A stretch of DNA of 24,098 nt from a virus: positions 1 to 24,098 of the IMG/VR virus record IMGVR_UViG_3300025818_000182. One strand, given 5' to 3'. This document shows positions 2,640 through 15,424 of this stretch, piece by piece. Both the position numbers and the translations under genes were made by a program. How positions within the stretch are numbered: the first letter of the stretch is position 1; each line of letters opens with the position of its first letter. Under the pieces are notes generated by a model. It did not search any database. It was not told where the DNA came from and worked only from the letters and a program-made list of their open reading frames with translations.

Positions 2640-3956
2640 ATGGCGTCAACTTATTCAACAAGTTTGAGAATAGAGCTTCAAGGTTCGGGAGAAAATTCTG
2701 GAACTTGGGGAACTATTACCAACAACAATTTTTCACAATCTTTAGAATTTAGTATTGCTGGTGTAGTAAATGTTGCGTGCGGCGATAGTGCTGTAACAAC
2801 GCTGACGAACGCTGACGGTCCACAATCACAAGCTAATAACCAAGCAAGAAATGCTCACATAAGATTAACGGGTGCACATGGTGCAGTAAGAATAGCTCAA
2901 TTCCCAGCTACTCAAAAAACATATTTAATTACTAACGCAACGACTGATTCAGGATCTTCTGGTCCTTATGCAATGACTTGTAGATTAGGTGCTTCAGGTA
3001 ATACACTTTCAATAGCTAACGGCACAACTCGTCTTGTTTCTACAGATGGTACAAACTGGTATGATGTTTTTTCTTCAGGCGGATCATATGATCTTAATGG
3101 TCAAGACTTAGTTTTAGATACTGATGGAGACACTAAAATAATTTCATCAACTGATGATAGAATTGAATTTTCTATTGCAGGTACAGGTGTTGGTAACTTT
3201 ACAAATTCATCTAGTGATTTTGTAATTACTTCAGGTGTACAAGATAAAGACATTGTATTTAAAGGCGATGATAATGCTAGTGCTATAACTGCTTTAACTT
3301 TAGACATGTCTGAAGCAGGAGCTGCTACTTTTAATGCAGGCGCTACATTTGGTGGTGTCGTAGATGCAGACTCAGGTGTCACTATTGACAATATTACAAT
3401 TGATGGCACAGAGATAGATTTATCATCTGGCGATTTAACTTTAGATGTTGCTGGTGATATAATTTTAGATGCAGCAGGCAACGATTTAATTTTTCAATCT
3501 GCTGGAACAGCTATTGGTCATATTACTAATAGTGCAAGTGATTTAGTTATTGAATCAAAAGTATCTGATAAAGACATGATATTTAAAGGTAATGATGGTG
3601 GCTCTGGTATTACAGCTTTAACTCTTGATATGTCAGGTGCTGGTGCAGCAACTTTTAATAATGATGTAACAGCTTTCTCTGATAAAAGACTTAAAACAGA
3701 TATAAAAAATATTGATAATGCATTATCTAAAGTAATGAAAATGCAAGGTGTCTACTATAAAAGAAATGATGTAGATGATGCTAAAGAACAAGTTGGAGTG
3801 TTAGCTCAAGATATGGAAGAGATTTTACCTCAAGTTGTATTGACGGCCGACGATGAAATGAAAACCAAATCTGTTGATTATGGAAAAATATGTTCTGTTT
3901 TGATAGAAGCAATTAAGGATTTAAAGCAACAGGTTGATGAATTAAAGGGTAATTAA
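2640..3956 (+). CDS. Tail fibre protein with S74 intramolecular chaperone
   Basis: The 438-residue protein has a fibre-like N-terminal body and a C-terminal chaperone-peptidase S74 domain (about residues 347-438). The domain opens with SDKRLKTDI. Ser347 and Lys352 match the Ser-(x4)-Lys spacing of the self-cleavage dyad in endosialidase-type fibres, and GVLAQDMEEILPQVV and VDYGKICSVLIEAIKDLKQQ follow as expected. In this family the domain trimerises and folds the fibre, then cuts itself off just before the Ser. The body contains a repeated unit of about 50 residues (185-236 and 293-343) with ITALTLDMS and GAATFN. The protein probably recognises the host or forms a side fibre. The next gene starts 2 bases after the stop. 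Confidence 0.85.
   Translation: MASTYSTSLRIELQGSGENSGTWGTITNNNFSQSLEFSIAGVVNVACGDSAVTTLTNADGPQSQANNQARNAHIRLTGAHGAVRIAQFPATQKTYLITNATTDSGSSGPYAMTCRLGASGNTLSIANGTTRLVSTDGTNWYDVFSSGGSYDLNGQDLVLDTDGDTKIISSTDDRIEFSIAGTGVGNFTNSSSDFVITSGVQDKDIVFKGDDNASAITALTLDMSEAGAATFNAGATFGGVVDADSGVTIDNITIDGTEIDLSSGDLTLDVAGDIILDAAGNDLIFQSAGTAIGHITNSASDLVIESKVSDKDMIFKGNDGGSGITALTLDMSGAGAATFNNDVTAFSDKRLKTDIKNIDNALSKVMKMQGVYYKRNDVDDAKEQVGVLAQDMEEILPQVVLTADDEMKTKSVDYGKICSVLIEAIKDLKQQVDELKGN
3192..3668 (+). repeat. Two-copy internal repeat in tail fibre gene
   Basis: Two copies of a unit of about 50 codons lie at roughly 3192-3347 and 3516-3668. Both encode a pattern of (F/I)TNSxSDxVI, then DKDxxFKG, then ITALTLDMSxAGAATFN. 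The second copy runs directly into the S74 cleavage Ser. A diverged tandem unit of this kind is typical of fibre shafts and may reflect duplication or recombination that changes fibre length. Confidence 0.6.
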
Positions 3957-3958
3957 AA

Positions 3959-4996
3959 ATGACTTTACCTTCAGGTACTATATCACTTTCGCAAGTAAAC
4001 ACGGAATTAGATATATCACCATCTAGCACAGCCATTAATATGGGTGCTACAGCAGTAAGAGACCTTGCAGAAGTTCCTTCTGGTGCAATTGGGATGTCTG
4101 ATTTACAAGGAAAAACAAACGCAGCATTCGTTACTGCAACTGGTGGAACAATTGCTACATCAGGTAATTTTAAAATACATACTTTTACCTCATCAGGAAC
4201 TTTTTCAGTTTCTGACGCAGGAGATGCAAACGGATCAAACACAGTAGAATATTTGATAGTAGCTGGTGGTGGTTCTGGCGCAGCTAGTTATGGCGGTGGC
4301 GGTGGAGCAGGTGGATTTAGAATTAATTTTCCTCAACCCGCAACTGGTGGAACTCCTGTTTCTGCAACAAATTATCCTATTACTATAGGCGCTGGTGCAT
4401 CTGCTTCAGGAACTCCTGGTTCTTCGCCAGGTAATAATGGAAACCCTAGTTCTGCTTTTGGTATTACTTCTGCAGGAGGTGGTAAAGGGGGTAATGGACC
4501 TGGTGGTAATAATCCTGTTTCAGCTCCAGGTGGACAAGGCGGTTCTGGTGGTGGAAAAGTACACGGTGGCGCATCAGTAGGACAAGGAAATACTCCTCCT
4601 GTTTCTCCTCCTCAAGGAAATCCTGGTGGACAAGGAAACATTCAAGAGAATCAAGGAGCTGGTGGCGGTGGCGGTGGAGCCAATGCAACTGGTGGAAATG
4701 GTAGAGGTGGTCCTTCAGGCCCTGGTGCTGGCGGAACGGGTGGAGCTGGTACAGCAACAAATATTTCAGGTTCTTCTGTAACATACGCAGGCGGCGGTGG
4801 TGGAGGTTATCATGCACACTACGGTCAAGGTAGCCCTGCTCCTGGTGGTGCAGGTGGCGGTGGAGCAACAGGTCAAGCTGGAACTGCAAACACAGGCGGC
4901 GGTTCTGGTGGTGGTTCTGTAGGTGCTTCAGGAACTCCCAGCGGTAGCGGCGGTTCTGGAGTTGTAATTATAAGATATAGGTTTCAAGCAGATTAA
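3959..4996 (+). CDS. Glycine-rich tail adhesin-like protein
   Basis: The 345-residue protein has three parts. The N-terminus (about 1-52) carries LPSGTISLSQVNTEL and VPSGAIGMSDLQGK, a segment common at the start of phage tail fibre proteins. A beta-rich bridge follows (FKIHTFTSSGTFSV). Residues about 103-335 form a Gly/Pro/Ser-rich domain with runs such as GGGGGAGG, ending GSGGSGVVIIRYRF. Similar glycine-rich domains occur in phage tail adhesins that form polyglycine-II-type sandwiches. The many Pro-Gly dipeptides are noteworthy given the neighbouring hydroxylase-like genes. It sits between the S74 fibre and a conserved accessory gene. Receptor binding is inferred. Confidence 0.7.
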   Translation: MTLPSGTISLSQVNTELDISPSSTAINMGATAVRDLAEVPSGAIGMSDLQGKTNAAFVTATGGTIATSGNFKIHTFTSSGTFSVSDAGDANGSNTVEYLIVAGGGSGAASYGGGGGAGGFRINFPQPATGGTPVSATNYPITIGAGASASGTPGSSPGNNGNPSSAFGITSAGGGKGGNGPGGNNPVSAPGGQGGSGGGKVHGGASVGQGNTPPVSPPQGNPGGQGNIQENQGAGGGGGGANATGGNGRGGPSGPGAGGTGGAGTATNISGSSVTYAGGGGGGYHAHYGQGSPAPGGAGGGGATGQAGTANTGGGSGGGSVGASGTPSGSGGSGVVIIRYRFQAD

Positions 4997-4997
4997 T

Positions 4998-5489
4998 ATG
5001 GCACATTTTGCAAAATTAAATGATAGTAATGTAGTTATTAGCTGTGAAGTTGTAGCTGATGCAGACACTAAAGATGAAAACGGAAATGAAGTTGAATCTG
5101 TAGGCGTTGCTTTTTTAACGAGTGTACACGGTTATACAAATTGGAAAAAGTATTCTAGAAATACTATGGCTGGAAAATATTATAATGTTGATTCTAATGG
5201 CAATTGGACTTCTGAAGGAGATCAATCAAAAGCATTTAGAAAAAATCCTGCAGCGATAGGATACACTTATGATCCAGGCAGAGATGCTTTTATTCCACCA
5301 AAACTTTTTGATTCTTTTATTTTAAATGAAACAACTTGTACTTGGGATGCTCCTGTAGCTTATCCAACGGTAACTTCTCATGATGGATTAATGTACTTGA
5401 TTGAATGGGATGAAACTAATCTTAGATGGATAGCTGAAGCAGAAAATAAAAAATGGAATCCAGAGACATTTGCGTGGATAGACATCTAG
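4998..5489 (+). CDS. Conserved tail-associated phage protein, function unknown
   Basis: The 163-residue protein starts MAHFAKLNDSNVVISCEVV and contains NWKKYSRN, FRKNPAAIGYTYDPGRDAFI and a Trp-rich C-terminus (WDETNLRWIAEAENKKWNPETFAW). I recognise this layout from small proteins next to tail fibre genes in T4-like cyanophages and marine phages, where its role is unknown. A part in fibre assembly or attachment is likely from position. It begins one base after the adhesin stop and overlaps the next gene by 37 bases in a different frame, which is longer than other overlaps here. Confidence 0.65.
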   Translation: MAHFAKLNDSNVVISCEVVADADTKDENGNEVESVGVAFLTSVHGYTNWKKYSRNTMAGKYYNVDSNGNWTSEGDQSKAFRKNPAAIGYTYDPGRDAFIPPKLFDSFILNETTCTWDAPVAYPTVTSHDGLMYLIEWDETNLRWIAEAENKKWNPETFAWIDI

Positions 5490-6073
5490 AAAAAATAAAA
5501 CCTTACAGTGTATTTAAAAAACATCTTCTTTCAGAAGAATTTGTCACGGTTCATACTGTTTCAAAAAATTTATTAATTGATAATAAAAAAATAACAAATC
5601 ATATAAAAAAGGCTAAGAAAAAAAAACAAAGATGGCGACCTGAAGTTTGGTATTCTGATAATAATTATTTTAAATTTGACTTACATCAACATATAACTTG
5701 GTTAAATGACTATATAAGAGACACCTTTAGCACTGAAATTGATGAGGATTTAATGTTAAGTTCAAATCATGTTTCAGGTATTTATCTTGAAAAAAATGAA
5801 AGTATAGGATCACACAATCACATTGATGAATGGGACTATCAAAACTCCCCTGATATATCAGTTATATACTGTGCAGACACAGGTAAAGATAAATGTGATA
5901 TTATATTTGAACATGAGTACGGAAGACATAAGAAAAGAAGATGGGCCGTTTTTTTAGAAAAAGGTAAGTGTATTATTTTTCCATCTTATATTAATTTTTT
6001 TATCACTCAGAATATTAATGAAAAACCTTTTGCAGGGTTGTGTTATAGGTATCAATTATCTAAAAAAACTTAA
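5453..6073 (+). CDS. Double-stranded beta-helix protein, 2OG-oxygenase-like, probably degenerate
   Basis: The 206-residue protein resembles the PF13759-type dioxygenases. It has SHNHIDEWDY (His121, His123, Asp125), a strand ISVIYC, and a core motif IIFPSYINFF. In active relatives the last motif reads FPSWLxH; here the metal-binding His is replaced by Phe182. The C-terminal Arg that normally holds 2-oxoglutarate is not in its usual place (end: FAGLCYRYQL). The protein may therefore be inactive or act as a binding protein. The ATG at 5453 lies inside the previous gene with only a weak ribosome site. An in-frame GTG at 5474 is an alternative. The gene meets the minus-strand cluster tail to tail with a 4-base overlap. 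Confidence 0.6.
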   Translation: MESRDICVDRHLEKIKPYSVFKKHLLSEEFVTVHTVSKNLLIDNKKITNHIKKAKKKKQRWRPEVWYSDNNYFKFDLHQHITWLNDYIRDTFSTEIDEDLMLSSNHVSGIYLEKNESIGSHNHIDEWDYQNSPDISVIYCADTGKDKCDIIFEHEYGRHKKRRWAVFLEKGKCIIFPSYINFFITQNINEKPFAGLCYRYQLSKKT

Positions 6074-6636
6074 TAATTAAAATTTATTACAACTCTTCTT
6101 TTTTCATCTGTACAGGAAGATCCTGTGTGTTTTGTACGGCAATCAAACTCTACATACCTATTTCTTTTACTTTTAATTTTTTTTCCGTTTTCTAATTTAG
6201 TATAGCCATTACAAGTATTTATATAAAAAATACCTGTCTTTTTCATTCCATAATTTGCCCATTCACCATTTCTATCTGTATGCATACCATGTTCAACTAT
6301 TTTTTCAGTTTTAGGTGAAAGATTAGCTTTTACTCTATAAAAATTTCTATGGTAAGGTATTCCTAATTTTAAACGAAAAGGTTCTAAAAGACCCATCATA
6401 AATTCATCGCAATTTATTTCGCCACCTTGTCTAATAAAACCATAAACAAATTGAAAATAATCATCACCTTCAGTATTAACATGATCGTTAAAATACCAAG
6501 GCATGAAAGACGACATCATTATATCTTCTAATTTTTTTAAATCATCTTCATTTAAAAAATTATCAATTACTTTGTGTTTAACATTCATGTTAACATCAAA
6601 ATGTGTTTTTGTACCAACATTGTATTCTATACTCAT
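6070..6636 (-). CDS. 2OG-Fe(II) dioxygenase family protein
   Basis: The 188-residue protein has a full set of dioxygenase residues. HGMHTDR gives the HxD pair (His119, Asp121). Strands follow with TGIFYINTCNGYT. The distal His is probably His170 in CRTKHTGSS, and an Arg (180 or 181) sits in EKRRVVINFNY near the end, where family members bind the 2-oxoglutarate carboxylate. Such enzymes use Fe(II), O2 and 2-oxoglutarate to hydroxylate proteins, nucleic acids or small molecules. The substrate is unknown. It starts at an ATGA overlap with the upstream 112-residue gene, so the two are probably translated together. It is the last gene of the minus-strand cluster. Confidence 0.75.
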   Translation of the reverse strand: MSIEYNVGTKTHFDVNMNVKHKVIDNFLNEDDLKKLEDIMMSSFMPWYFNDHVNTEGDDYFQFVYGFIRQGGEINCDEFMMGLLEPFRLKLGIPYHRNFYRVKANLSPKTEKIVEHGMHTDRNGEWANYGMKKTGIFYINTCNGYTKLENGKKIKSKRNRYVEFDCRTKHTGSSCTDEKRRVVINFNY

Positions 6637-6971
6637 ATTAAAGCCTCTTCACTATTTCCTGATTTAATAAATATTTTATTGTCAGTTTCTTTTTCTGAAA
6701 AAAGACAATTAGTTAAAACACAATACATATTTGAATTTGTTTCATTATGTAATTCTGATTCTTCAATAATTTGTAAAGCTCCTTCTTTTAAACCAAAGGC
6801 TTTTTTAATAATAAATAAAACGTTACCAGGTGTAATAGTAATTTTAGTTTTTTTTTGTATTTTTAAAAAAGTTTGTTTGTCATAAAATACTTCTATACCA
6901 GGATGATTTGATTTTTCGTATCTTCTTGTTTTTAAAAAATTAAATTTTTCTATAAGTTCATTCACGTTCAT
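6633..6971 (-). CDS. Hypothetical 112-residue protein in dioxygenase cluster
   Basis: I do not recognise this protein. It is Lys-rich and soluble, with alternating hydrophobic stretches (TKITITPGNVLFIIKKAFGL) and two cysteines near residues 84 and 89. It has no signal peptide or membrane segment. It overlaps the upstream dioxygenase gene by 14 bases and the downstream one by 4 bases (ATGA), so it is part of the same translationally linked unit. That linkage and the intact frame make it a real gene. It might be a partner or substrate-binding subunit of a neighbouring dioxygenase, which is a guess from position alone. Confidence 0.6.
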   Translation of the reverse strand: MNVNELIEKFNFLKTRRYEKSNHPGIEVFYDKQTFLKIQKKTKITITPGNVLFIIKKAFGLKEGALQIIEESELHNETNSNMYCVLTNCLFSEKETDNKIFIKSGNSEEALI

Positions 6972-7521
6972 AACCCTTAATTATTTTATCAAAATATATA
7001 TTAAAAGAAATTATTGTTTTTCTTTTAGATGATTTGTTTTTAGGTGCTCGGTGAACAACAAAACTAGGAAAGATAACAAAGTCTCCCTCTTGCACATTTA
7101 AATTAATTATATTGTTCATATTAGAAGGATCAACTATTTGAGTTACAGGAGATTCTTTTGGCATTTCTAAATAATACACTCCAGTATAATTACCGCCATG
7201 AACATGCCAACCATGTTTGCCATTTTCAAGATATTGTTGATACCATACTACGGGTAAAGTAAAATTTTCAAACCCTAATGGTTTTATCATTGTATAAATT
7301 TGTTTGTTTAAAAAAGGTAAAAATTGTTTTACCCACGGTCTTTCAAAATCTTTATTTTTATGCCAATCTAATTTATGAATATTATCACTGTAATATTGAT
7401 CATCAGCTTCTAGTTTTTCATGAGAAGAAATATCTATACTTAATAAAAGTTTTCCTTTTATTTTATTGTGATCGTTAAATTTATTTATTATATACGGAAC
7501 AGATAAATTATTAATTATCAT
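6958..7521 (-). CDS. 2OG-Fe(II) dioxygenase, PF13759-like (HxH type)
   Basis: From the ATG at 7521 the protein has 187 residues. A longer reading from 7566 would run 15 residues into the upstream gene, while 7521 lies one base after that gene's stop, so I chose it. The motif WHVHGGNYTGVYYLEMP (His106, His108) matches the HxH...SGVYYL signature of this family, and FPSFVVHRAP supplies the distal His157. The end, KRKTIISFNI, puts Lys168 where relatives often have Arg for 2-oxoglutarate binding. It is probably an oxygenase of unknown substrate. The missing Asp in the HxD position is usual in this family. Confidence 0.7.
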   Translation of the reverse strand: MIINNLSVPYIINKFNDHNKIKGKLLLSIDISSHEKLEADDQYYSDNIHKLDWHKNKDFERPWVKQFLPFLNKQIYTMIKPLGFENFTLPVVWYQQYLENGKHGWHVHGGNYTGVYYLEMPKESPVTQIVDPSNMNNIINLNVQEGDFVIFPSFVVHRAPKNKSSKRKTIISFNIYFDKIIKGYERE

Positions 7522-7522
7522 T

Positions 7523-8155
7523 TTAATCCTGACAATAAAAAAAATGAGTAATAGTGTATCGTCCATTTCCTATTTCTTTAAATTTTTTTGTTTTAATAGG
7601 TAATACTTCATGAAGGTAATAACACGGAAACATTAACATTCTATTGTGCTTTACATTAATTTCATAATCTGGTTCTGTAAATTTTAAATTACCACCTGTA
7701 AATTTTTTTGGTTCACGATAAAACCATATGAGAGAAGTCCATTGAAACTTATCATAATGAGGTTCATAATAATCATTATTTTCGTAGTAAGAAATTATAT
7801 TTGCATCGTGATCGCTGCCTATAAAACTTCTATACTGCGGTGTTATGTTTTGTATTATTTCATGAAATTTAGGTGTTCTAAATAAATTCATGTTTTGTAT
7901 TATTGGTGAATAGGTTCTACCTTCCTGCGTATAGAGTCTATCAATATAGAACCTATATGATTTACCTTTAGCAGTCCCATCTTCATGACGTGCAACAACA
8001 GTGTCTTCTGCTCTTAGTTGGTCATGTTTGTTTTTGGTAGATAAAAAATCTAACTCAGTCCAAATAAATTTTTCTGTTTCCTTGTCATACCAATTATCAA
8101 TGACAAGAAAAGGAAAGGGTTGATCCCCTCCAATTTGTACTATCCAATCTTTCAT
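7523..8155 (-). CDS. 2OG-Fe(II) dioxygenase family protein
   Basis: The 210-residue protein has a canonical dioxygenase core. EPHYDKF gives the HxD pair (His133, Asp135), followed by SLIWFYREPKKFTGGNLKF, a typical strand with the GG turn. FPCYYLHEVLPI gives the distal His182, and GNGRYTITHFF supplies Arg199 for 2-oxoglutarate. The layout resembles prolyl-4-hydroxylase-type enzymes (PF13640), which modify proteins. The actual substrate is unknown. Its ATG overlaps the stop of the upstream dioxygenase as ATGA, so four or more cluster genes are read as one unit. All key residues are present, so it is likely active. Confidence 0.75.
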   Translation of the reverse strand: MKDWIVQIGGDQPFPFLVIDNWYDKETEKFIWTELDFLSTKNKHDQLRAEDTVVARHEDGTAKGKSYRFYIDRLYTQEGRTYSPIIQNMNLFRTPKFHEIIQNITPQYRSFIGSDHDANIISYYENNDYYEPHYDKFQWTSLIWFYREPKKFTGGNLKFTEPDYEINVKHNRMLMFPCYYLHEVLPIKTKKFKEIGNGRYTITHFFYCQD

Positions 8156-8772
8156 TGTTTTTTAAATTCTGCAGGTAATCCTAAAAAAGGTCTTGTATCA
8201 AATAAATTTGGTTCTTCTAATGCACCATCAGTGCTATTGTAATGTAGAAAAACTTGACAACAATCTTTTCCTGTAAAACTTTCCCTCCAATGCTCCAAAT
8301 CACATCCGCTGTAAGCTAACATATCTCCAGGTTTAAGAACTATTTTTTTACCTTTATTACCTTGATTTCCTGTAGGGTCTAAATAAATTGGCCATTCATC
8401 TCCTCCTAAGTTAAGAGTGCAAGAAATTTCACAAGAAGGCCTGTCTTTGTGTCTATGAAGAACATCACCAAATTTATAAATTCTAGCATAGCTATATGTT
8501 GGTATAAGACTTAAATCAGTTACTTGCATCATTTTTGGTAATACTCTTTCCAATAAAGTTTCCATAACCATGTCTGCATAGTGACTATATGTGTTTGGTA
8601 TTTGATCATCTTTCCACGTCCCCCAAGTTTGATCAAAAGGAGAAATAAATTTATTTTCCTGTAAATGTTGTGCAACTTTTCTTTTATTACTAAAATATGC
8701 AAAACAAAAACTTGCTAGTTCGTTTGATATTGCTTTTTTAACTACTGCGTATTTATTTTGTTTAAAACTCAT
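8152..8772 (-). CDS. 2OG-Fe(II) dioxygenase-like protein
   Basis: The 206-residue protein has YKFGDVLHRHKDRPSCEIS, giving an HxD pair (His108, Asp110). Strand SCTLNLGGDEWPIYL follows, and LKPGDMLAYSGCDLEHWRE gives the distal His161. I recall similar proteins from T4-like cyanophages. The usual C-terminal Arg is not obvious in DCCQVFLHYN. Arg111, just after the HxD motif, or another residue might take over 2-oxoglutarate binding, so activity is less certain. A clear AGGAG precedes the ATG in the 8-base gap after the upstream gene, and the downstream gene starts at an ATGA overlap. The substrate is unknown. Confidence 0.7.
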   Translation of the reverse strand: MSFKQNKYAVVKKAISNELASFCFAYFSNKRKVAQHLQENKFISPFDQTWGTWKDDQIPNTYSHYADMVMETLLERVLPKMMQVTDLSLIPTYSYARIYKFGDVLHRHKDRPSCEISCTLNLGGDEWPIYLDPTGNQGNKGKKIVLKPGDMLAYSGCDLEHWRESFTGKDCCQVFLHYNSTDGALEEPNLFDTRPFLGLPAEFKKQ

Positions 8773-8780
8773 ATTATCTC

Positions 8781-9398
8781 CTATTTAAATAAATTACCTT
8801 TATTCCAACATACCAATGAATATCGTGTCCCTTTCGTTACTGGAACAACCCTATGCCAAACAAAAGAAGGAAAAAATATCATTGTCCCTTTTTGTTTAAG
8901 TTTAATATTAATTATTTTATTTTGTTTTGGATTAGGTATACAAATTTGAAAATCACCGCCTTCATATTCATCATCATTTGCTAAAATTAAACTAGCAGAT
9001 ATTTTTCTTGTTAAACCATTTTCATCAGCATCTCCTGAATCGGTGTGCCAATCGTAATGTTGTTTTTGTGTGCCTTCATATTTTGTAAATTGAAAAGATT
9101 CTGTCATGCTCCACTGAAAATTCCAACCCGCTTGTGCATTCACTTGATGAATTATTGGTTGAATTTCTCTGTACATCCAATTATCGCTCATCCAAATAAC
9201 TTTAGATTTTCTTGTTTTTTCTAATTCTTGTCTATCATAATCACTTAGATTATTTGTGTCGTATCCCCATGTTGTTGCAACCTGTTCTTTTAAATATTTA
9301 CCGTACTCAATGACATGATCACAAAACCTGTTGGTGACTGCGTTTTCTAAAATAAAATAATTATTTCGTAAATTCATTCTTTTTTCTGCCTCTTTCAT
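8781..9398 (-). CDS. PKHD/prolyl-4-hydroxylase-type 2OG-Fe(II) dioxygenase
   Basis: The 205-residue protein is the clearest dioxygenase of the cluster. HYDWHTDSGD gives His118 and Asp120. ISASLILANDDEYEGGDFQI is the typical strand pair with the EGGDF turn. FPSFVWHRVVPVTKGTRYS supplies His182 and Arg192. This matches the PKHD-type hydroxylases (PF13640, relatives of prolyl 4-hydroxylase), which often modify proline. The ATG at 9398 is the annotated start. A second in-frame ATG at 9377 has AGAGG 11 bases upstream and is a real alternative. It is the first gene of the minus-strand cluster. A TATAAT on the minus strand at 9425-9430 could be its -10 box, but no good -35 is visible. Confidence 0.8.
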   Translation of the reverse strand: MKEAEKRMNLRNNYFILENAVTNRFCDHVIEYGKYLKEQVATTWGYDTNNLSDYDRQELEKTRKSKVIWMSDNWMYREIQPIIHQVNAQAGWNFQWSMTESFQFTKYEGTQKQHYDWHTDSGDADENGLTRKISASLILANDDEYEGGDFQICIPNPKQNKIINIKLKQKGTMIFFPSFVWHRVVPVTKGTRYSLVCWNKGNLFK

Positions 9399-9440
9399 AA
9401 CACGAATTCTCTGTCAAGAAAACAATTATAAAAAGATTGC

Positions 9441-9469
9441 TTGATATATTCTGTACACATGTTTAAATT
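9441..9469 (+). promoter_or_regulatory. Sigma70-like promoter for the 9506-9739 gene
   Basis: TTGATA (9441-9446) and TAAATT (9464-9469) are separated by 17 bases, matching five and four of six consensus positions. It lies in the 107-base divergent gap between the dioxygenase cluster and the small forward gene, 36 bases before its ATG. An AT-rich background makes chance matches likely. Confidence 0.4.
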
Positions 9470-9505
9470 AGATCTCACCCAAAAATTATAAATCAAGGAG
9501 ATATT

Positions 9506-9739
9506 ATGGAAAATCAAGAAGTATTGAAGGCTATAGCTACCCTTGCTGATAAGGTGAGTCGTTACCACGAACGTTTATTAGCAGTGGAAAGAGACAATGA
9601 AAAACTACAACAAGAATTATTAGAACACAAAAAAAGTTCTCATATACATACAATTCAAGGTAAACCACATAACTCCGATGCAACTGTTATGATAACAGGC
9701 TTAGATTCTGATATGGAATGTGAAGCGTGTAGCGCTTAA
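9506..9739 (+). CDS. Small coiled-coil protein with C-terminal CxxC
   Basis: The 77-residue protein has a Glu/Lys-rich heptad-like region (about residues 10-43, KVSRYHERLLAVERDNEKL). A tail with several His residues follows and ends ECEACSA, a CxxC pair that could bind metal or form a disulfide. I do not recognise the family. A strong AAGGAG at 9495-9500 lies 5 bases before the ATG. It is the only forward gene between two minus-strand blocks, and its stop abuts the stop of the next gene with no gap. A regulatory or virion role is equally possible. Confidence 0.6.
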   Translation: MENQEVLKAIATLADKVSRYHERLLAVERDNEKLQQELLEHKKSSHIHTIQGKPHNSDATVMITGLDSDMECEACSA

Positions 9740-9991
9740 TTAATCAGGAGTTACACCTAACATATCTGCTAAAGAAGGGGCGAATATTTTTACGTCTCTT
9801 CTAATTTTTTCAGCAGTTGTAGATGTTCCTGGATTATCAACATCAGCTTGAGCCGCAGCCTCTGATTCATATTCAGCGCCCGTATCAACATGAGTAATTG
9901 TTGTTTCAGTTTTTACTTTATAATGTGGAATTCTTCTTCCATCTTCAGTCGTAATGTGACCTAGTAATTCAGCAGGTTCAACTATCGGCAT
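9740..9991 (-). CDS. Small conserved marine-phage protein, function unknown
   Basis: The 83-residue protein starts MPIVEPAELLGHI and has GRRIPHYKV, ITHVDTGAEYESEAAAQADV and a disordered middle (NPGTSTTAEKIRRDV). I recall very similar small proteins in uncultured marine phages, always as hypotheticals. The THVDTGxxYxSExxAxxDV stretch looks like a folded beta/alpha unit. It overlaps the upstream dioxygenase gene by 14 bases. No signal peptide, membrane segment or catalytic motif is visible. The role is unknown. Confidence 0.65.
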   Translation of the reverse strand: MPIVEPAELLGHITTEDGRRIPHYKVKTETTITHVDTGAEYESEAAAQADVDNPGTSTTAEKIRRDVKIFAPSLADMLGVTPD

Positions 9992-10574
9992 CTTCGTTTC
10001 TCCAATTTATGTTAAAACTGATGATAACTCTATCTTCATCAGAATTATTTGTTTGTACTTCATGTTGTAACCATGATGGAAAAAAAATCAAGGAATTTTC
10101 AACAGGCTCCCATTGTACGCTGTGAGCAAGGTGTATAGAGGCTTTATCTGTTTTAGGTGGTGATAGCACCTCTGACTGTGGTTTAGGCTCTAGAAACACA
10201 ATATTTCCACACTTTTTAGGAGCTTTAAGATAAAATACACCTGATAAATAGTTATATGGATGCGTGTGAACATTGTTTCGTGATCCTGGTGGATTAATCA
10301 TACCCCACATACCAGTCATTTCAGGAACATAATTGTGTTTGACATCTAAGTGATTAAAACAATCTTTAGAATATTTTAATATATCACCAACCAAAGGACG
10401 AAACTTTTTAATATCATATATTTCATCATGACTATGCCAACCGCCGACATTGGACCGTGGCATACCCATCTCATCTTTTTCTCGTAGTTGATAGATGCTA
10501 TCAATAAGATGTTCGTGGCCTTTTAATTGTAGTGAAAATACGGGAGTAATAAATAACGAATGAAGATTGATCAG
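9978..10574 (-). CDS. 2OG-Fe(II) dioxygenase, PF13759-like, with CTG start
   Basis: The first ATG (10469) gives only 163 residues and cuts off a conserved N-terminus. The frame is open upstream and encodes SLFITPVFSLQLKGHEHL then QLREKDE, which fits the usual start of this family. CTG at 10574 overlaps the previous stop as CTGA, in the place of the usual ATGA, with AAGGA 5 bases upstream. It gives 198 residues. NNVHTHPYNYLSGVFYL provides the HxH pair (His103, His105). FFPSWLQHEV supplies His171, and DRVIISFNI supplies Arg182. It is probably an active oxygenase. The substrate is unknown. The start is inferred. Confidence 0.75.
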   Translation of the reverse strand: MINLHSLFITPVFSLQLKGHEHLIDSIYQLREKDEMGMPRSNVGGWHSHDEIYDIKKFRPLVGDILKYSKDCFNHLDVKHNYVPEMTGMWGMINPPGSRNNVHTHPYNYLSGVFYLKAPKKCGNIVFLEPKPQSEVLSPPKTDKASIHLAHSVQWEPVENSLIFFPSWLQHEVQTNNSDEDRVIISFNINWRNEDADS

Positions 10575-10933
10575 AGTTGTCCTTTTGTGATCTCCAAAAA
10601 ACTTGCTATAATGTGCACCTGATTGGCAGCATTAGCTTGAACTTTAAGAATATCACTTTCTTGCAAAACTAAAGGTTGTGTCAATAGTTCTGTGGTTGTG
10701 TTTGTAGCAACACTCTTTGCTTTAAATACTTCAAAGGTTGCAGCCCCTCTGACAACTTCAACATCAACTAAAGTTGTTGAACCAGAGTCATTGCAAACTA
10801 AAAGAGATTTTACTATATCTGTAGTTGGTGGAACTGGTGGCGTTGCACCAGGATCAGCCGTGGGAACTGTCAAGACAGTTGTTAAATTCGTAGTAGTTAC
10901 ATCTACCATTGCACTTTTAAATGTATTAGCCAA
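10571..10933 (-). CDS. Conserved phage protein, probably virion, TTG start
   Basis: The 120-residue Thr/Val-rich protein reads MANTFKSAMVDVTTTN, then SLLVCNDSGSTTLVDVEVV, and ends VHIIASFLEI. It has repeated beta strands. I recall this type as a common hypothetical protein near tail genes in marine phages. The start is TTG at 10933, with GGAGG 9 bases upstream (10943-10947). It overlaps the stop region of the 55-residue gene by 8 bases. The later ATG (residue 9) would lose the conserved N-terminus. A virion component is likely but unproven. Confidence 0.65.
   Translation of the reverse strand: MANTFKSAMVDVTTTNLTTVLTVPTADPGATPPVPPTTDIVKSLLVCNDSGSTTLVDVEVVRGAATFEVFKAKSVATNTTTELLTQPLVLQESDILKVQANAANQVHIIASFLEITKGQL
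10580..10584 (-). promoter_or_regulatory. Ribosome binding site supporting the CTG start
   Basis: AAGGA on the minus strand lies 5 bases before CTG at 10574, a normal spacing. No comparable site precedes the downstream ATG at 10469 closely enough to favour it over the CTGA overlap. Confidence 0.45.
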
Positions 10934-11093
10934 GGAAAACAGCCTCCGACTCTGATTCGTTTTTTAAATCTTGTTGGTAGTTTGTATTAAGTAAAAAAAT
11001 TATTTGATCTAATAATTGAATCATTTGATCAAACTGATTGGCATCATATTCTGGAGTCGCATTGGGTAATCGTGTGATAGTTATTCTAGCCAT
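10926..11093 (-). CDS. Small 55-residue conserved phage protein
   Basis: An intact short frame starts MARITITRLPNATPEYDANQ and ends ESEAVFLG. It is helical in the middle (FDQMIQLLDQIIFLL) and acidic at the end. I recall similar small proteins (MARITLPNAT..., with QxDIKNE near the end) beside the TTG-start protein in marine phages. It overlaps the sulfotransferase gene by 8 bases at its start and the next gene by 8 bases at its end, which fits a translationally coupled operon. AAAGAG lies a few bases before the ATG. Function unknown. Confidence 0.6.
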   Translation of the reverse strand: MARITITRLPNATPEYDANQFDQMIQLLDQIIFLLNTNYQQDLKNESESEAVFLG

Positions 11094-11853
11094 TTTTACT
11101 CTTTATTAAATTATCAAACATAATATGGGTTTTTTCATATTTTTCAATTATTTTATCTGGTATCAAAGACAAGTAATCATAAGGATTTTTTTTAATATTG
11201 TTAGTTCTAATATGATGCCATTCAGGAATAGGGTCATTATACTGTATATTCTGTATAGAAAATTGATTAAAATTTTTAGTTTTTATTCTATACTGAGGCA
11301 CATTTAAAAATTTTAATATTTTAAAAATTGTTTGTTTAGGAGACTTTATTAACTCATCGTAAGTAATAATTTTATATTTTTCTTCTGAGTTAAGTATATT
11401 TTCAATGCTCCATATAGATACTCCTATGTTGTGATCTCTTCTTAATAAAGAATTACACATTTCTTCTTTACGTGATTCTTTAATGTTCATAACTTTAAGA
11501 GTTGAAGCTAAACATTCAAAGACAGGTCTATACAGTATTACAAATTTACTGTTTAATTTTAATTCTCTTAAATAATTTAGGTTTGCTTCAGTGCCCCAAG
11601 ATCCTCTATCCAAAACATGTTTGCACTTATAATGTTTGTAGTAAGAAAAAAATGCTTGTTTAGCTGCGTTGTGTACTCCAGTATAATCTGGAAATTCTTG
11701 ATACTGTGGAAAATCCTGTAAGGTTAAAATACGATGAACTAATTCGGTTACAACGCTATTTGCTGTAACTTTAATATCATCACTTTGATTAAGTAAAGAG
11801 CCTAGCAAAGTGTTACCTGCTCTAGGCATAGAACATAAAAAATTTATTTTAAT
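11086..11853 (-). CDS. Sulfotransferase family protein, probable ATT start
   Basis: The ATG at 11829 starts directly on the cofactor motif and gives 247 residues. Seven codons upstream the frame encodes KINFLCS, the beta strand that normally precedes this motif. ATT at 11853, one base after the previous stop, would give 255 residues. PRAGNTLLGSLL matches the 5'-phosphosulfate loop (PRSGTTL type). FVILYRPVFECLAS matches the 3'-phosphate motif, with Arg and Ser eight residues apart as in known sulfotransferases. TYDELIKSPKQTIFKILKFL is the usual C-terminal helix region. The enzyme would move sulfate from PAPS to a sugar or protein. The substrate is unknown. Confidence 0.75.
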   Translation of the reverse strand: MKINFLCSMPRAGNTLLGSLLNQSDDIKVTANSVVTELVHRILTLQDFPQYQEFPDYTGVHNAAKQAFFSYYKHYKCKHVLDRGSWGTEANLNYLRELKLNSKFVILYRPVFECLASTLKVMNIKESRKEEMCNSLLRRDHNIGVSIWSIENILNSEEKYKIITYDELIKSPKQTIFKILKFLNVPQYRIKTKNFNQFSIQNIQYNDPIPEWHHIRTNNIKKNPYDYLSLIPDKIIEKYEKTHIMFDNLIKSKNG

Positions 11854-11854
11854 A

Positions 11855-13699
11855 TTATCTTCTTCCGTCTGGTCTAAGTTGTAATTTTGTTGATCCTAGT
11901 CTCCAAGCAGTGTCGTTTACAGTGTTTGTTTGATATTTAATTTTAACTGCTCTTCCTCTACCTCTTACATCAATCTTCTCCGTAGTATTGGAAATAGATC
12001 CAGTGGTAGTAACCGTATCTGCTGATTGAGGATATTGTTCAAGTGTTAGTGTAGCCGTCATGGTATTAGTTAAATTATCAAAGTCTGGAACAAGTTTACT
12101 TACAGACATAAGTTCATCACCGTCCGCTATTTCAACAGAACCTGATGTTAAAAAAGCAGAGATAGCTGTGCCGTCCGCTTGATTATTACCATTCTCATGT
12201 TCGTAAATATACGAAGCACCTGCAGTTAACCCAAGTATAGTAGAGTTATTTGCTGTTAAGCTTGCATCGTATTCTGTAGCAATAGGTAATTCATATACAT
12301 AAGCACCTAACCAAGTAGTTCTTGCAAGGGATGTAGTATACCAAGTGTTCTCTAGATAGTTGTAAGCCACAGCTCTGTCTATTTGTGTAGCATTAGCTGA
12401 TGGGTAATACCAAATTATTTCATTAAATGCGGTGTTAATACCACAGGCTATGTCTTTTTTATTAGTATAACTTATATCGTCAAATACATAATCTTGAACA
12501 GAACAAGGCATTTTTTTGACAACACCATCGTACATGTAAAAAGAATTATCAGACATCCAATAAGATCTACCATTTATTTCTACTGCTGCGTGTTGAGCTA
12601 TTAACCCACAGTTAGCACCAAGCTGTCTAAGACCAAAAGTAAAAGGTGTGCCAACAAATTGAATACCGTGCATAGATGTATCTGTCCAAACTAATATTTG
12701 ACCAGATGATTTAACAGCGCCTACTATTCTAGAGCCATCTGATATACGAAGAGAACCAGCTTCATTAGTTGATACTGGTGTATAATCCGTAGCGTCTTCT
12801 CGATCAGAAAATCTAAATAATAAATCATCTTGCGTATCACTGTTGCCTATTGTTGTTTCTGTACCAAAAATTAATAAATGTCTTGTGTCGGTAGACACTA
12901 AACTAAACCTAGAAGCTGTTGGAGCATTAGATAAAGTTGTTGCTCTATTACTTGTACCCCCTGATGTATCCCAAACAAACGTTCCACCATTTAAAACGGT
13001 AGCAATTAAATCTTCACCAAAATTATCTAAAGACCAGTTTCTTGCGTCTACTACAACACTTGAAGATGATCTTGGCGTATTCCATGTGCTATTATTCCAA
13101 GCCAATGTTCCCCAACCATAACCATAACTAGATGTAGATGGCCCTGTTCGAATTTGATAATTAGCATTTCCAGATCCACCGCCGCCTGATGTTGACCCAG
13201 AAGCTGTGCTTGTATGAGTTACTGTATATGTACTAGCAGAAGGAACTGTAATAACTTCAAACTCGTTATTCATATCTAATCCATCTATTGCAGAGAATGA
13301 ATCAAAAGTAACAAAGTCACCAATGTGTGCTCCATGAGCTGCATCCGTAACTGTAACAGTTGTTGTACCATTTGTGGTAAAAGGATTTGTTAAAGCTGCT
13401 GTTTCTCTAATAGGAGTTATGTCAGTTACTGCGCCATCAGAATAAATATATAATTTTCTGTCTGTACCTAAAGCAAGATATCTGGTTCCGTCTAAACCAA
13501 TCCAGCTATGCGTATCACGGACCACGCCCACAATAGTTTTATTTGGATTTGGCAAATATGTCCAACCTTTCCATCTTTCAGGTTTACCATAGTGAAATCG
13601 AACAAAGTCAGAATCAACATACTTACGTTGATCTCCTGCTGAATAAGCAGTATCTTGTTTATCTATACCTGGTTGAAACTTTAAATCGACTAATTTCAT
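11855..13699 (-). CDS. Tail nozzle/stabilisation protein (P22 gp10-like)
   Basis: The 614-residue beta-rich protein starts LKFQPGIDKQDTAYS and has VDSDFVRFHYGKPERWKGW, then repeated WxxLDGTRYLALGTDRKLYIY-like blades. I associate this layout with the tail nozzle or stabilisation proteins of P22-like and marine podoviruses, which extend the portal-adaptor stack as a tail tube tip. YGWGTLAWNNSTWNTP (about residues 191-206) resembles the Trp-rich motif of the repetitive protein at 1174-2586. The family assignment is recalled rather than searched. It is transcribed opposite to the other virion blocks. It ends before the sulfotransferase start. Confidence 0.6.
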   Translation of the reverse strand: MKLVDLKFQPGIDKQDTAYSAGDQRKYVDSDFVRFHYGKPERWKGWTYLPNPNKTIVGVVRDTHSWIGLDGTRYLALGTDRKLYIYSDGAVTDITPIRETAALTNPFTTNGTTTVTVTDAAHGAHIGDFVTFDSFSAIDGLDMNNEFEVITVPSASTYTVTHTSTASGSTSGGGGSGNANYQIRTGPSTSSYGYGWGTLAWNNSTWNTPRSSSSVVVDARNWSLDNFGEDLIATVLNGGTFVWDTSGGTSNRATTLSNAPTASRFSLVSTDTRHLLIFGTETTIGNSDTQDDLLFRFSDREDATDYTPVSTNEAGSLRISDGSRIVGAVKSSGQILVWTDTSMHGIQFVGTPFTFGLRQLGANCGLIAQHAAVEINGRSYWMSDNSFYMYDGVVKKMPCSVQDYVFDDISYTNKKDIACGINTAFNEIIWYYPSANATQIDRAVAYNYLENTWYTTSLARTTWLGAYVYELPIATEYDASLTANNSTILGLTAGASYIYEHENGNNQADGTAISAFLTSGSVEIADGDELMSVSKLVPDFDNLTNTMTATLTLEQYPQSADTVTTTGSISNTTEKIDVRGRGRAVKIKYQTNTVNDTAWRLGSTKLQLRPDGRR

Positions 13700-13715
13700 G
13701 TCGGGGTATACTAAA

Positions 13716-14504
13716 TTATTTATTGTTTTGTGGCAAGAATTGAGTTCCTACATTACCTTTGAAGGAGTAATTACCCATGTGTGTCATACCACTAGCAATA
13801 TCAGCATATATTTTACCGCCTATTTTTTGCCATAAACGACAAAAAGCATAATCTTCAGATAAATATCTTTTAGTACCAGGCTCTATCATAGTGTCAAAAA
13901 AAGCATAGTTCCAATCAGACGTGTCGTGATATCCAAAGGTTTTGTCGTGAGGATCGCCTAAATGTTGATCAGATTTAAATCTTAAATGAGGATATGCCAA
14001 TGCCATTTTTTTAAATACATTTCTTTTTATCAACATAAAACCAGTTGCACCGTCCAATACTTCTATAAAACCTTTTTTAACCATAATATTTTTTGGATCT
14101 TTAACATTTAAATTATATTGCAACGATGCTGCATGTAATTCATCTTCACTTATATTTGGTTTTTCTTTTACTTTTTTGATTGCCTTGGTCCAATCAATTA
14201 CCTTTCGTGGGTATACTCCTGTCACTACATCTTCATCTAAATCTAACATACGAAACACTGACTCAGAATTAAAAGCTAAATCAGCGTCAATAAATAAAAG
14301 ATGTGTATATTGTTCGTCGTCCATAAATAATTGCACCAATGTGTTTCGAGCTCTTGTTACTAAAGATTCATTACCAATAGTTCCAAATTGTATTTCTATT
14401 TTTTTACTAGCTGCTAAAGCCGTAAGTTGTAGACAGCTTTTAAAATAGTCGGCTGTCAACATATTGCCGTAACAAGGTGTTCCAATAAATATTTTAGAAT
14501 TCAC
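13716..14504 (-). CDS. GT-A fold glycosyltransferase
   Basis: The 262-residue protein starts IFIGTPCYGNMLTADYF, as GT-A enzymes do with a nucleotide-binding strand. HLLFIDADLAF holds the DxD-type metal motif (Asp73, Asp75). DVVTGVYPRKVI, DGATGFMLIKRNVF and KRYLSEDYAFCRL (Glu217-Asp218 acidic pair) continue the family pattern. His242 near the end fits a metal ligand. It would move a sugar from a nucleotide sugar to an unknown acceptor. No membrane segment is seen. It overlaps the upstream 91-residue gene by 11 bases and lies next to the nozzle-like gene, so virion or host glycan modification is possible. Confidence 0.7.
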   Translation of the reverse strand: MNSKIFIGTPCYGNMLTADYFKSCLQLTALAASKKIEIQFGTIGNESLVTRARNTLVQLFMDDEQYTHLLFIDADLAFNSESVFRMLDLDEDVVTGVYPRKVIDWTKAIKKVKEKPNISEDELHAASLQYNLNVKDPKNIMVKKGFIEVLDGATGFMLIKRNVFKKMALAYPHLRFKSDQHLGDPHDKTFGYHDTSDWNYAFFDTMIEPGTKRYLSEDYAFCRLWQKIGGKIYADIASGMTHMGNYSFKGNVGTQFLPQNNK

Positions 14505-14769
14505 TATAACTTACTTTTAAATATTCTATTTTCTTTAACCAATCTTTAGGTATTGCGATAGCACCACCGCCTGATATGTCTTCTTTGTCTTTGCTATACG
14601 AACGCATAATAATTATTTTTTCTTTACCATTATGTATCATCCACCCTACTTCTTGGCACACGGCCAACGGAGCATCCATAACTTCTTTTATATCAATCCA
14701 ACCAGTCTCAGTATCACGAGCATCGAGCCACGTCACACGGACCATCGGCACTTTGTTAATGTCAATCAT
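14494..14769 (-). CDS. Small conserved phage protein, function unknown
   Basis: The 91-residue protein reads VRVTWLDARDTETGWIDIKEV, then VCQEVGWMIHNGKEKIIIMRSY, and ends IAIPKDWLKKIEYL. It looks like a compact beta-rich fold, and I recall similar proteins in marine phages and cyanophages. It overlaps the upstream dioxygenase gene by 8 bases and the downstream glycosyltransferase gene by 11 bases. No enzyme motif is visible. Confidence 0.65.
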   Translation of the reverse strand: MIDINKVPMVRVTWLDARDTETGWIDIKEVMDAPLAVCQEVGWMIHNGKEKIIIMRSYSKDKEDISGGGAIAIPKDWLKKIEYLKVSYSEF

Positions 14770-15424
14770 TAATAGGTTCTTTTTTCTTTAAATGTAAATT
14801 AAAAGAAACAGATCTTCTCTCTTCATTAGGAGTTCTAAATGGATAAACACCATGAGATAACCAAGAAGGAAATAAATATATTGCACCTACTTCAGGTGTT
14901 ACTTGATGTTTGTGACCACTAAAAGTTGCAGCTTGACCACACATAAAATGTATATCGCCTACACAAGGATAGTGATCTTCTTTTGCATATTCATCTTTTA
15001 AACTTGGAGGCACTCGTAAATAGATAACACCTGACAATTCGCCCTGATGTACATGCATAGGATTAAAGTCTCCAGCCCACTGACTCACGACCCACATAGA
15101 TTCTATAAGCATAGATCCAACAAATGCTGGTGATATTGTATCACTAGCAGGAGGTATAGAAATATATTGATGAACTACTTTACCTAAAGCATCTATTAAA
15201 GGTTTAAATTCTTTGCTAATTAAATCATCGTTAGGATAACGAACTTCTTGTTGAACATTACCTGCTAAATTCATAGAGTGATCGTATTCTTTTGATAATT
15301 TTTTGTCCTCTAATAATTTTGTAGCTCTGTTATCAAGAATTTTAATTAAGTTATTAGGTAGTTTACCTTCTAATATAGTCGGACCAAAAGGTCTAATGGC
15401 ATGAAAATCTACTTTAGTTGACAT
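14762..15424 (-). CDS. 2OG-Fe(II) dioxygenase, PF13759-like (HxH type)
   Basis: The 220-residue protein carries FNPMHVHQGELSGVIYLRVP (His124, His126), LFPSWLSHGVYPF (His191) and EERRSVSFNLHL (Arg203 or 204). This is the full signature of the HxH subfamily. Its N-terminus, IRPFGPTILEGKLP, fits the family start. An extra stretch (HFMCGQAATFSGHKHQV, about 159-174) separates the motifs. It should be an Fe(II) oxygenase, but the substrate is unknown. It is the first gene of the minus-strand block and starts after a 139-base divergent gap, with AAAGGAAA a few bases before the ATG. Confidence 0.75.
   Translation of the reverse strand: MSTKVDFHAIRPFGPTILEGKLPNNLIKILDNRATKLLEDKKLSKEYDHSMNLAGNVQQEVRYPNDDLISKEFKPLIDALGKVVHQYISIPPASDTISPAFVGSMLIESMWVVSQWAGDFNPMHVHQGELSGVIYLRVPPSLKDEYAKEDHYPCVGDIHFMCGQAATFSGHKHQVTPEVGAIYLFPSWLSHGVYPFRTPNEERRSVSFNLHLKKKEPIND

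Follow-up and report, generated by a model that had tools for sequence, protein, structure and literature searches.

Dioxygenase-fold genes beside a glycine-rich fibre

The viral DNA analysed here, IMG/VR record IMGVR_UViG_3300025818_000182 (positions 1 to 24,098; the whole 24-kb fragment is called the window), carries eight genes that are predicted to encode proteins of the double-stranded beta-helix (DSBH), or dioxygenase, fold. The left part of the window encodes an adaptor, a tail fibre with a Peptidase_S74 domain, a glycine-rich fibre protein (PF21722) and a 163-residue partner. The DSBH genes, each named by its first coordinate (Table 1), follow. Seven of them lie within about 5 kb (5453-10469) and the eighth, 14762, is 4.3 kb further on, past sulfotransferase-, tail- and glycosyltransferase-like genes. 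Two of the gene types, 8781 and 8152, track the glycine-rich fibre protein in podoviruses and a pelagimyovirus. A first-pass annotation had placed eight dioxygenase-fold genes in the virion module; its open reading frames were confirmed, and Pfam, family profiles and predicted folds agree on the assignment.

Five of the eight proteins score over the Pfam cut-off, three with PF13759 (6958, 9978 and 14762) and two with PF13640 (7523 and 8781). The 6070 protein was assigned through its family, and 8152 and 5453 through predicted folds, which match 2-oxoglutarate (2OG) oxygenases and PF13759 structures, respectively. As the annotation had also said, the genes are not simple copies: the best pairs are 24-37% identical, over partial alignments.

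The features that define the 2OG oxygenase superfamily, a DSBH, an HxD/E...H triad and a 2OG-binding arginine, are present in 6070, 7523 and 8781; the triad of 7523 was read off its own sequence and those of 6070 and 8781 from family alignments. By itself 6070 scores 19.9 bits with PF13640, below the cut-off, but nine of the 21 members of its family match that profile (best 1.4e-7) and H119, D121, H170 and R181 are invariant. A library name for 6070, "DNA endonuclease V" (PHROG 274), was set aside because the HTD...H...R triad and the PF13640 matches of family members point to an oxygenase; the name of that entry is probably wrong. The HTD...H...R motif is also invariant in the 8781 family, whose solved relatives include PiuC and Sbal_3634. 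Profile comparison of 8781 with 6070 and with 8152 gave no significant link, hence the three are very divergent. With its PF13640/PKHD type, its PHROG 61 membership and its intact HxD...H...R, 8781 is the member of the set most likely to act on proline, and the candidate prolyl hydroxylase of the fibre.

The PF13759 proteins 6958, 9978 and 14762 are related to the solved structures 3bvc and 2rg4, and in the alignment of PF13759 members H124, H126 and H191 are invariant. Since HxH...H replaces the canonical HxD/E...H in these three, we infer, rather than read off, their use of a metal and co-substrate. The start of 5453 overlaps the 3' end of the 4998 gene. The 5453 protein has no Pfam oxygenase match of its own; five of ten members of its family match PF13759, and its profile aligns with that of the 9978/14762 family (hhalign 95%, E 1.7e-8). 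A predicted model (predicted local distance difference test, pLDDT, 73), built like that of 8152 from an alignment of window relatives, matches 3bvc and 2rg4. Thus 5453 has the superfamily fold and an incomplete metal triad. In this family the triad is lost stepwise: the distal histidine is present in three related contigs (L071, L099 and L105), phenylalanine takes its place in the window and its close kin, and HTVC023P has lost all three residues. Because of these losses 5453 is probably a pseudo-enzyme rather than a standard active one. The family, which also has a member at L003:9542-10042, is usually located near the fibre partner gene.

Variation of the array in relatives

Relatives were collected as contigs retrieved with the 11855, 5453, 8152, 4998 and 8781 proteins. 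The array recurs beside fibre genes with variable contents, and in related contigs this region holds as many as 11 genes of the dioxygenase fold. Two members alone, 9978 and 14762, are almost constant; a hypervariable stretch lies between them and the fibre genes. The layout of the window was found again in separate assemblies (L089 and, with an additional copy, L093 and L094), which makes an assembly artefact unlikely. The order of an 8781-type gene, another oxygenase and an 8152-type gene, shortly after the glycine-rich gene and its partner, is also seen in distant podoviruses including HTVC033P. In the myovirus HTVC008M an equivalent set adjoins the glycine-rich gene and partner on the opposite strand, and in Mosig an oxygenase array follows the glycine-rich gene.

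The wide variation of gene number and order around the two nearly constant members makes the array look like an exchangeable enzyme set rather than a fixed pathway. The first-pass annotation had proposed a multi-step modification pathway. A role in modification is probable, but the variable number and order, and a 5453 that is probably no standard enzyme, speak against the fixed pathway. Nor are eight such genes in one place unusual, as had been claimed: relatives reach 11, about nine are consecutive in the genome of cyanophage S-CREM1, where they are not beside annotated fibre genes, and multi-2OG sets have been published (PMC9599517, PMC9602691, PMC9964418).

Proline content of the fibre

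Within the window's clade a canonical 8152 gene is present in about 12 of 12 distinct contigs that have the glycine-rich fibre and in none of eight that lack it. Loci for a comparison of fibre composition were chosen with the partner gene as anchor and reduced to non-redundancy at 90% identity, and proline was scored in the 150-residue segment densest in glycine. In a first set, loci that have the 8781/8152 types showed 7.6% proline and the others 2.6% (p 1.2e-9). All 20 residues were inspected in that set; new loci were then fetched and scored with unchanged thresholds. The new loci alone (19 vs 35) gave 7.9 vs 2.9% (p 5e-9), and the other eight residues tested were non-significant. Over all loci (72 vs 54, non-redundant) the values are 7.7% with and 2.8% without these types (p 4e-19). 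The response is graded: 2.1% where there is no DSBH gene, 3.7% where there are other DSBH genes only, and 7.7% with the 8781/8152 types. At one locus (L033) 8152 is present, 8781 has only a remote counterpart, and the glycine-rich domain has zero proline.

Proline is likewise raised in the N-terminal part of the glycine-rich protein, and PP, TPP and SPP motifs are enriched in the fibre. In flanking virion proteins it is equal or slightly lower, one small protein being slightly higher. A guanine-plus-cytosine or proteome-wide effect was rejected from the residue tests, the independent contrasts and the flanking proteins. Within each of the nine metagenomes that hold both kinds of locus, proline is higher with these gene types (p 0.004), which argues against host or habitat as the sole cause. 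Independent contrasts on a tree of the partner gene retain the association for proline (r 0.33, p 2e-4), and glycine, alanine, serine, threonine, asparagine, glutamine and cysteine are non-significant.

The 8152 protein and the "ferrochelatase" label

The 8152 protein matches no Pfam profile, and its sole library match is a PHROG entry named "ferrochelatase". All of 34 relatives, cyanophages included, conserve H108-x-D110 ... H161. An AlphaFold2 model (pLDDT 80.7) matches 2OG oxygenases, with PHD2 at the top and all of the best 50 listed matches being of this class; its sequence profile gave only non-significant matches in the PDB. An invariant Q173 sits approximately where the 2OG-binding arginine usually does, and R97, R111 and R163 are invariant elsewhere. 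The predicted fold and the HxD...H motif together place 8152 in the superfamily. The ferrochelatase Pfam profile is unmatched in 24 members of the family, and fold and motif rule out a ferrochelatase, or haem-enzyme partner, identity. The label (PHROG 2954; 3531 by name; T4-GC 615 in cyanophages) is therefore probably mistaken in many records of marine phages, a correction that touches the haem and iron arguments built on it. In cyanophage ACG-2014f an 8152-like domain lies inside a 362-residue protein (L180:6001-7089). The first half of PHROG 3531 matches 8152 and the second half 8781, an apparent fusion in ACG-2014f.

Proposed function and alternatives

The proline association offers a concrete candidate substrate, the glycine-rich fibre tip. 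It narrows the substrate question that the first-pass annotation had left open, in that the 8781/8152 pair tracks a proline-enriched domain. Our leading reading, put forward tentatively, is that an 8781-type enzyme, with partners, modifies the glycine-rich adhesin and that the other enzymes are exchangeable. The enzymes would act on the fibre during virion assembly. The 8781 enzyme, with 8152 and others, would hydroxylate prolines or neighbouring adhesin residues, and hydroxylation would change the stability or receptor binding of the adhesin; we infer the partnership of 8152 with 8781 from their co-occurrence. In combinations that differ between lineages, the other enzymes, together with the glycosyltransferase- and sulfotransferase-like proteins, may modify this fibre or the host surface. 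A non-catalytic 5453 would be co-produced with the fibre. More speculative, though possible, is a general form of this proposal in which marine phages encode prolyl-hydroxylase-like enzymes that act on prolines in their glycine-rich tail-fibre adhesins, and an exchangeable array adds chemical variety at the receptor-binding tip. Fibre and enzymes occur together in the cultured phages HTVC023P, HTVC033P and HTVC008M.

Several observations weigh against fibre hydroxylation. First, substrate cannot be read from fold similarity. Second, glycine follows 34% of prolines vs 42% glycine overall, thus there is no collagen-like signature; a collagen-like Pro-Gly pattern was considered and rejected, only composition being different. 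The target prolines may then be in other contexts, or proline may be a correlate and another residue the target. Third, the choice of proline among 20 residues was made on the first set, although the difference then replicated. Fourth, in cyanophages the 8152 family also sits between dam and gp62, away from fibre genes. Fifth, the tree is that of the partner gene, the glycine-rich domain of the fibre being low-complexity, and it holds one independent pair on well-supported branches. Few supported branches separate the two states, so the paired test is powerless. The supported-branch phylogenetic control is weak, and shared ancestry of a fibre-plus-enzyme cassette may underlie the association.

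Such ancestry is the basis of the strongest alternative, in which a proline-rich adhesin and the adjoining oxygenases simply spread as a cassette and the enzymes have a role unrelated to the fibre. The genes are physically adjacent, and on the tree of the partner gene the trait shows strong clustering, with 6-8 changes and a single supported pair. We consider it rather unlikely, given that the association extends to a myovirus whose array is on the other strand, that the proline increase is confined to the glycine-rich protein, that the response is graded with an exception at L033, and that the independent contrasts are significant.

The literature on related phages reads such genes differently. 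HTVC023P-type pelagiphages have eight non-orthologous 2OG families, often close together and next to "ferrochelatase" (Wittmers et al. 2022, PMC9599517); these sets resemble that of the window in occurring in related phages and in being clusters of divergent 2OG genes. They were taken as auxiliary metabolic genes partnered by a haem enzyme, whereas here the partner has an oxygenase fold and we propose a connection with fibre composition. Cyanophages S-SCSM1 and S-CREM1 have 24 and ten 2OG genes, respectively (PMC9602691, PMC9964418). Like the window they carry many divergent PF13640/PF13759 genes per phage, clustered in S-CREM1, but a role in host metabolism is assumed and the S-CREM1 array, unlike the window's, is away from annotated fibre genes. 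The reading published for the pelagiphages and cyanophages (PMC9599517, PMC9602691), in which the enzymes influence host metabolism, the level of 2-oxoglutarate or iron physiology, is improbable for this array: the iron argument relies on the "ferrochelatase" partner, whose own fold is that of an oxygenase, and the genes are in the virion module and track fibre type.

The glycosyltransferase- and sulfotransferase-like genes that share the block would fit enzymes that modify small molecules or the surface glycans of host or progeny, and 2OG genes are found among glycosyltransferases in S-SCSM2R. The sulfotransferase is however confined to close kin and the proline association is left unexplained, which makes this quite improbable. 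AlkB- or TET-like nucleic-acid modification or repair is very improbable, since these families are unmatched in the Pfam search and the genes are in the virion module, the one pointer being that the 8152 profile matches TET-like enzymes weakly and without significance (E 0.45).

The array itself is already known from the multi-2OG sets of HTVC023P-type pelagiphages and cyanophages; the fibre-proline association and the corrected "ferrochelatase" label appear to be new. Marine phages commonly carry 2OG oxygenases, but no substrate for them is named in the literature searched. A passage in PMC12774648 likens PHROG 61 oxygenases in fold to the human prolyl hydroxylase EGLN3, without naming a substrate, and both 8781 and 7523 match PHROG 61. 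The tail-fibre adhesin of Salmonella phage S16 is described as polyglycine-rich (Dunne et al. 2018, as cited in PMC6957217). It is comparable to the window's fibre in description: both are glycine-rich tail-fibre proteins, that of S16 being receptor-binding. Oxygenases are not known from the S16 adhesin system.

The phage and neighbouring genes

By sequence, the window is a piece of a phage akin to the HTVC023P type. Its 11855 protein is closest to that of phage DSL-LC04 (45.5% identity), followed by the pelagiphages HTVC023P (41.5%) and HTVC027P (38.5%). Among the published markers of the type (PolA, primase, helicase, capsid) the fragment covers the helicase end only, which is on its right side, as is a DNA-ejection-like protein.

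Table 1. Genes of the fibre and dioxygenase region of the window
Feature	Coordinates	Strand	Basis
Tail fibre, C-terminal Peptidase_S74 intramolecular chaperone	2640..3956	+	PF13884 1.3e-16; PHROG tail fibre
Glycine-rich fibre/adhesin protein, proposed substrate	3959..4996	+	PF21722 4.5e-16; Gly-rich segment 8% proline
163-residue partner, next after Gly-rich gene	4998..5489	+	phrog_7759
D1, PF13759-like DSBH protein in fibre operon, distal metal His -> Phe (FPSYINFF)	5453..6073	+	profile + model
D2, 2OG-Fe(II) oxygenase (PF13640-like), HTD...H...R intact	6070..6636	-	family-level PF13640 match
Conserved 112-residue protein inside array	6633..6971	-	recurs in relatives
D3, PF13759 oxygenase, HVH...H metal motif	6958..7566	-	PF13759 43 bits; phrog_81 5.9e-32
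D4, PF13640 oxygenase, HYD...H...R, phrog_61	7523..8155	-	PF13640 42 bits
D5, predicted oxygenase-fold protein, phage label "ferrochelatase", HKD...H invariant	8152..8772	-	motif + model
D6, PF13640/PKHD-type oxygenase, phrog_61	8781..9398	-	PF13640 61 bits; phrog_61 1.1e-36
D7, PF13759 oxygenase, HTH...H, near-constant member	9978..10469	-	PF13759 85 bits; 3bvc 3.5e-14; syntenic in relatives
Sulfotransferase-like protein	11086..11829	-	PF13469 29.7 bits, over cut-off
Virion structural/stabilization-like protein, phage marker	11855..13699	-	phrog_3287 2.7e-81
Glycosyltransferase-like protein	13716..14504	-	phrog_1574 1.3e-42; PF01501 sub-threshold
D8, PF13759 oxygenase, HVH...H, near-constant member	14762..15424	-	PF13759 70 bits

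The minus strand carries most genes of 6070-15424, that of the 11855 virion protein among them. Their HTVC023P counterparts are co-directional with the other virion genes, and the left-to-right order is unchanged. The small conserved proteins at 6633-6971, which gave no match in Pfam and PHROG profile searches, and at 9740-9991 keep their positions within the array in many relatives. The sulfotransferase-like gene, within the virion module, is restricted to the window's close kin, and the glycosyltransferase-like gene keeps its place beside the 11855 virion protein across relatives.

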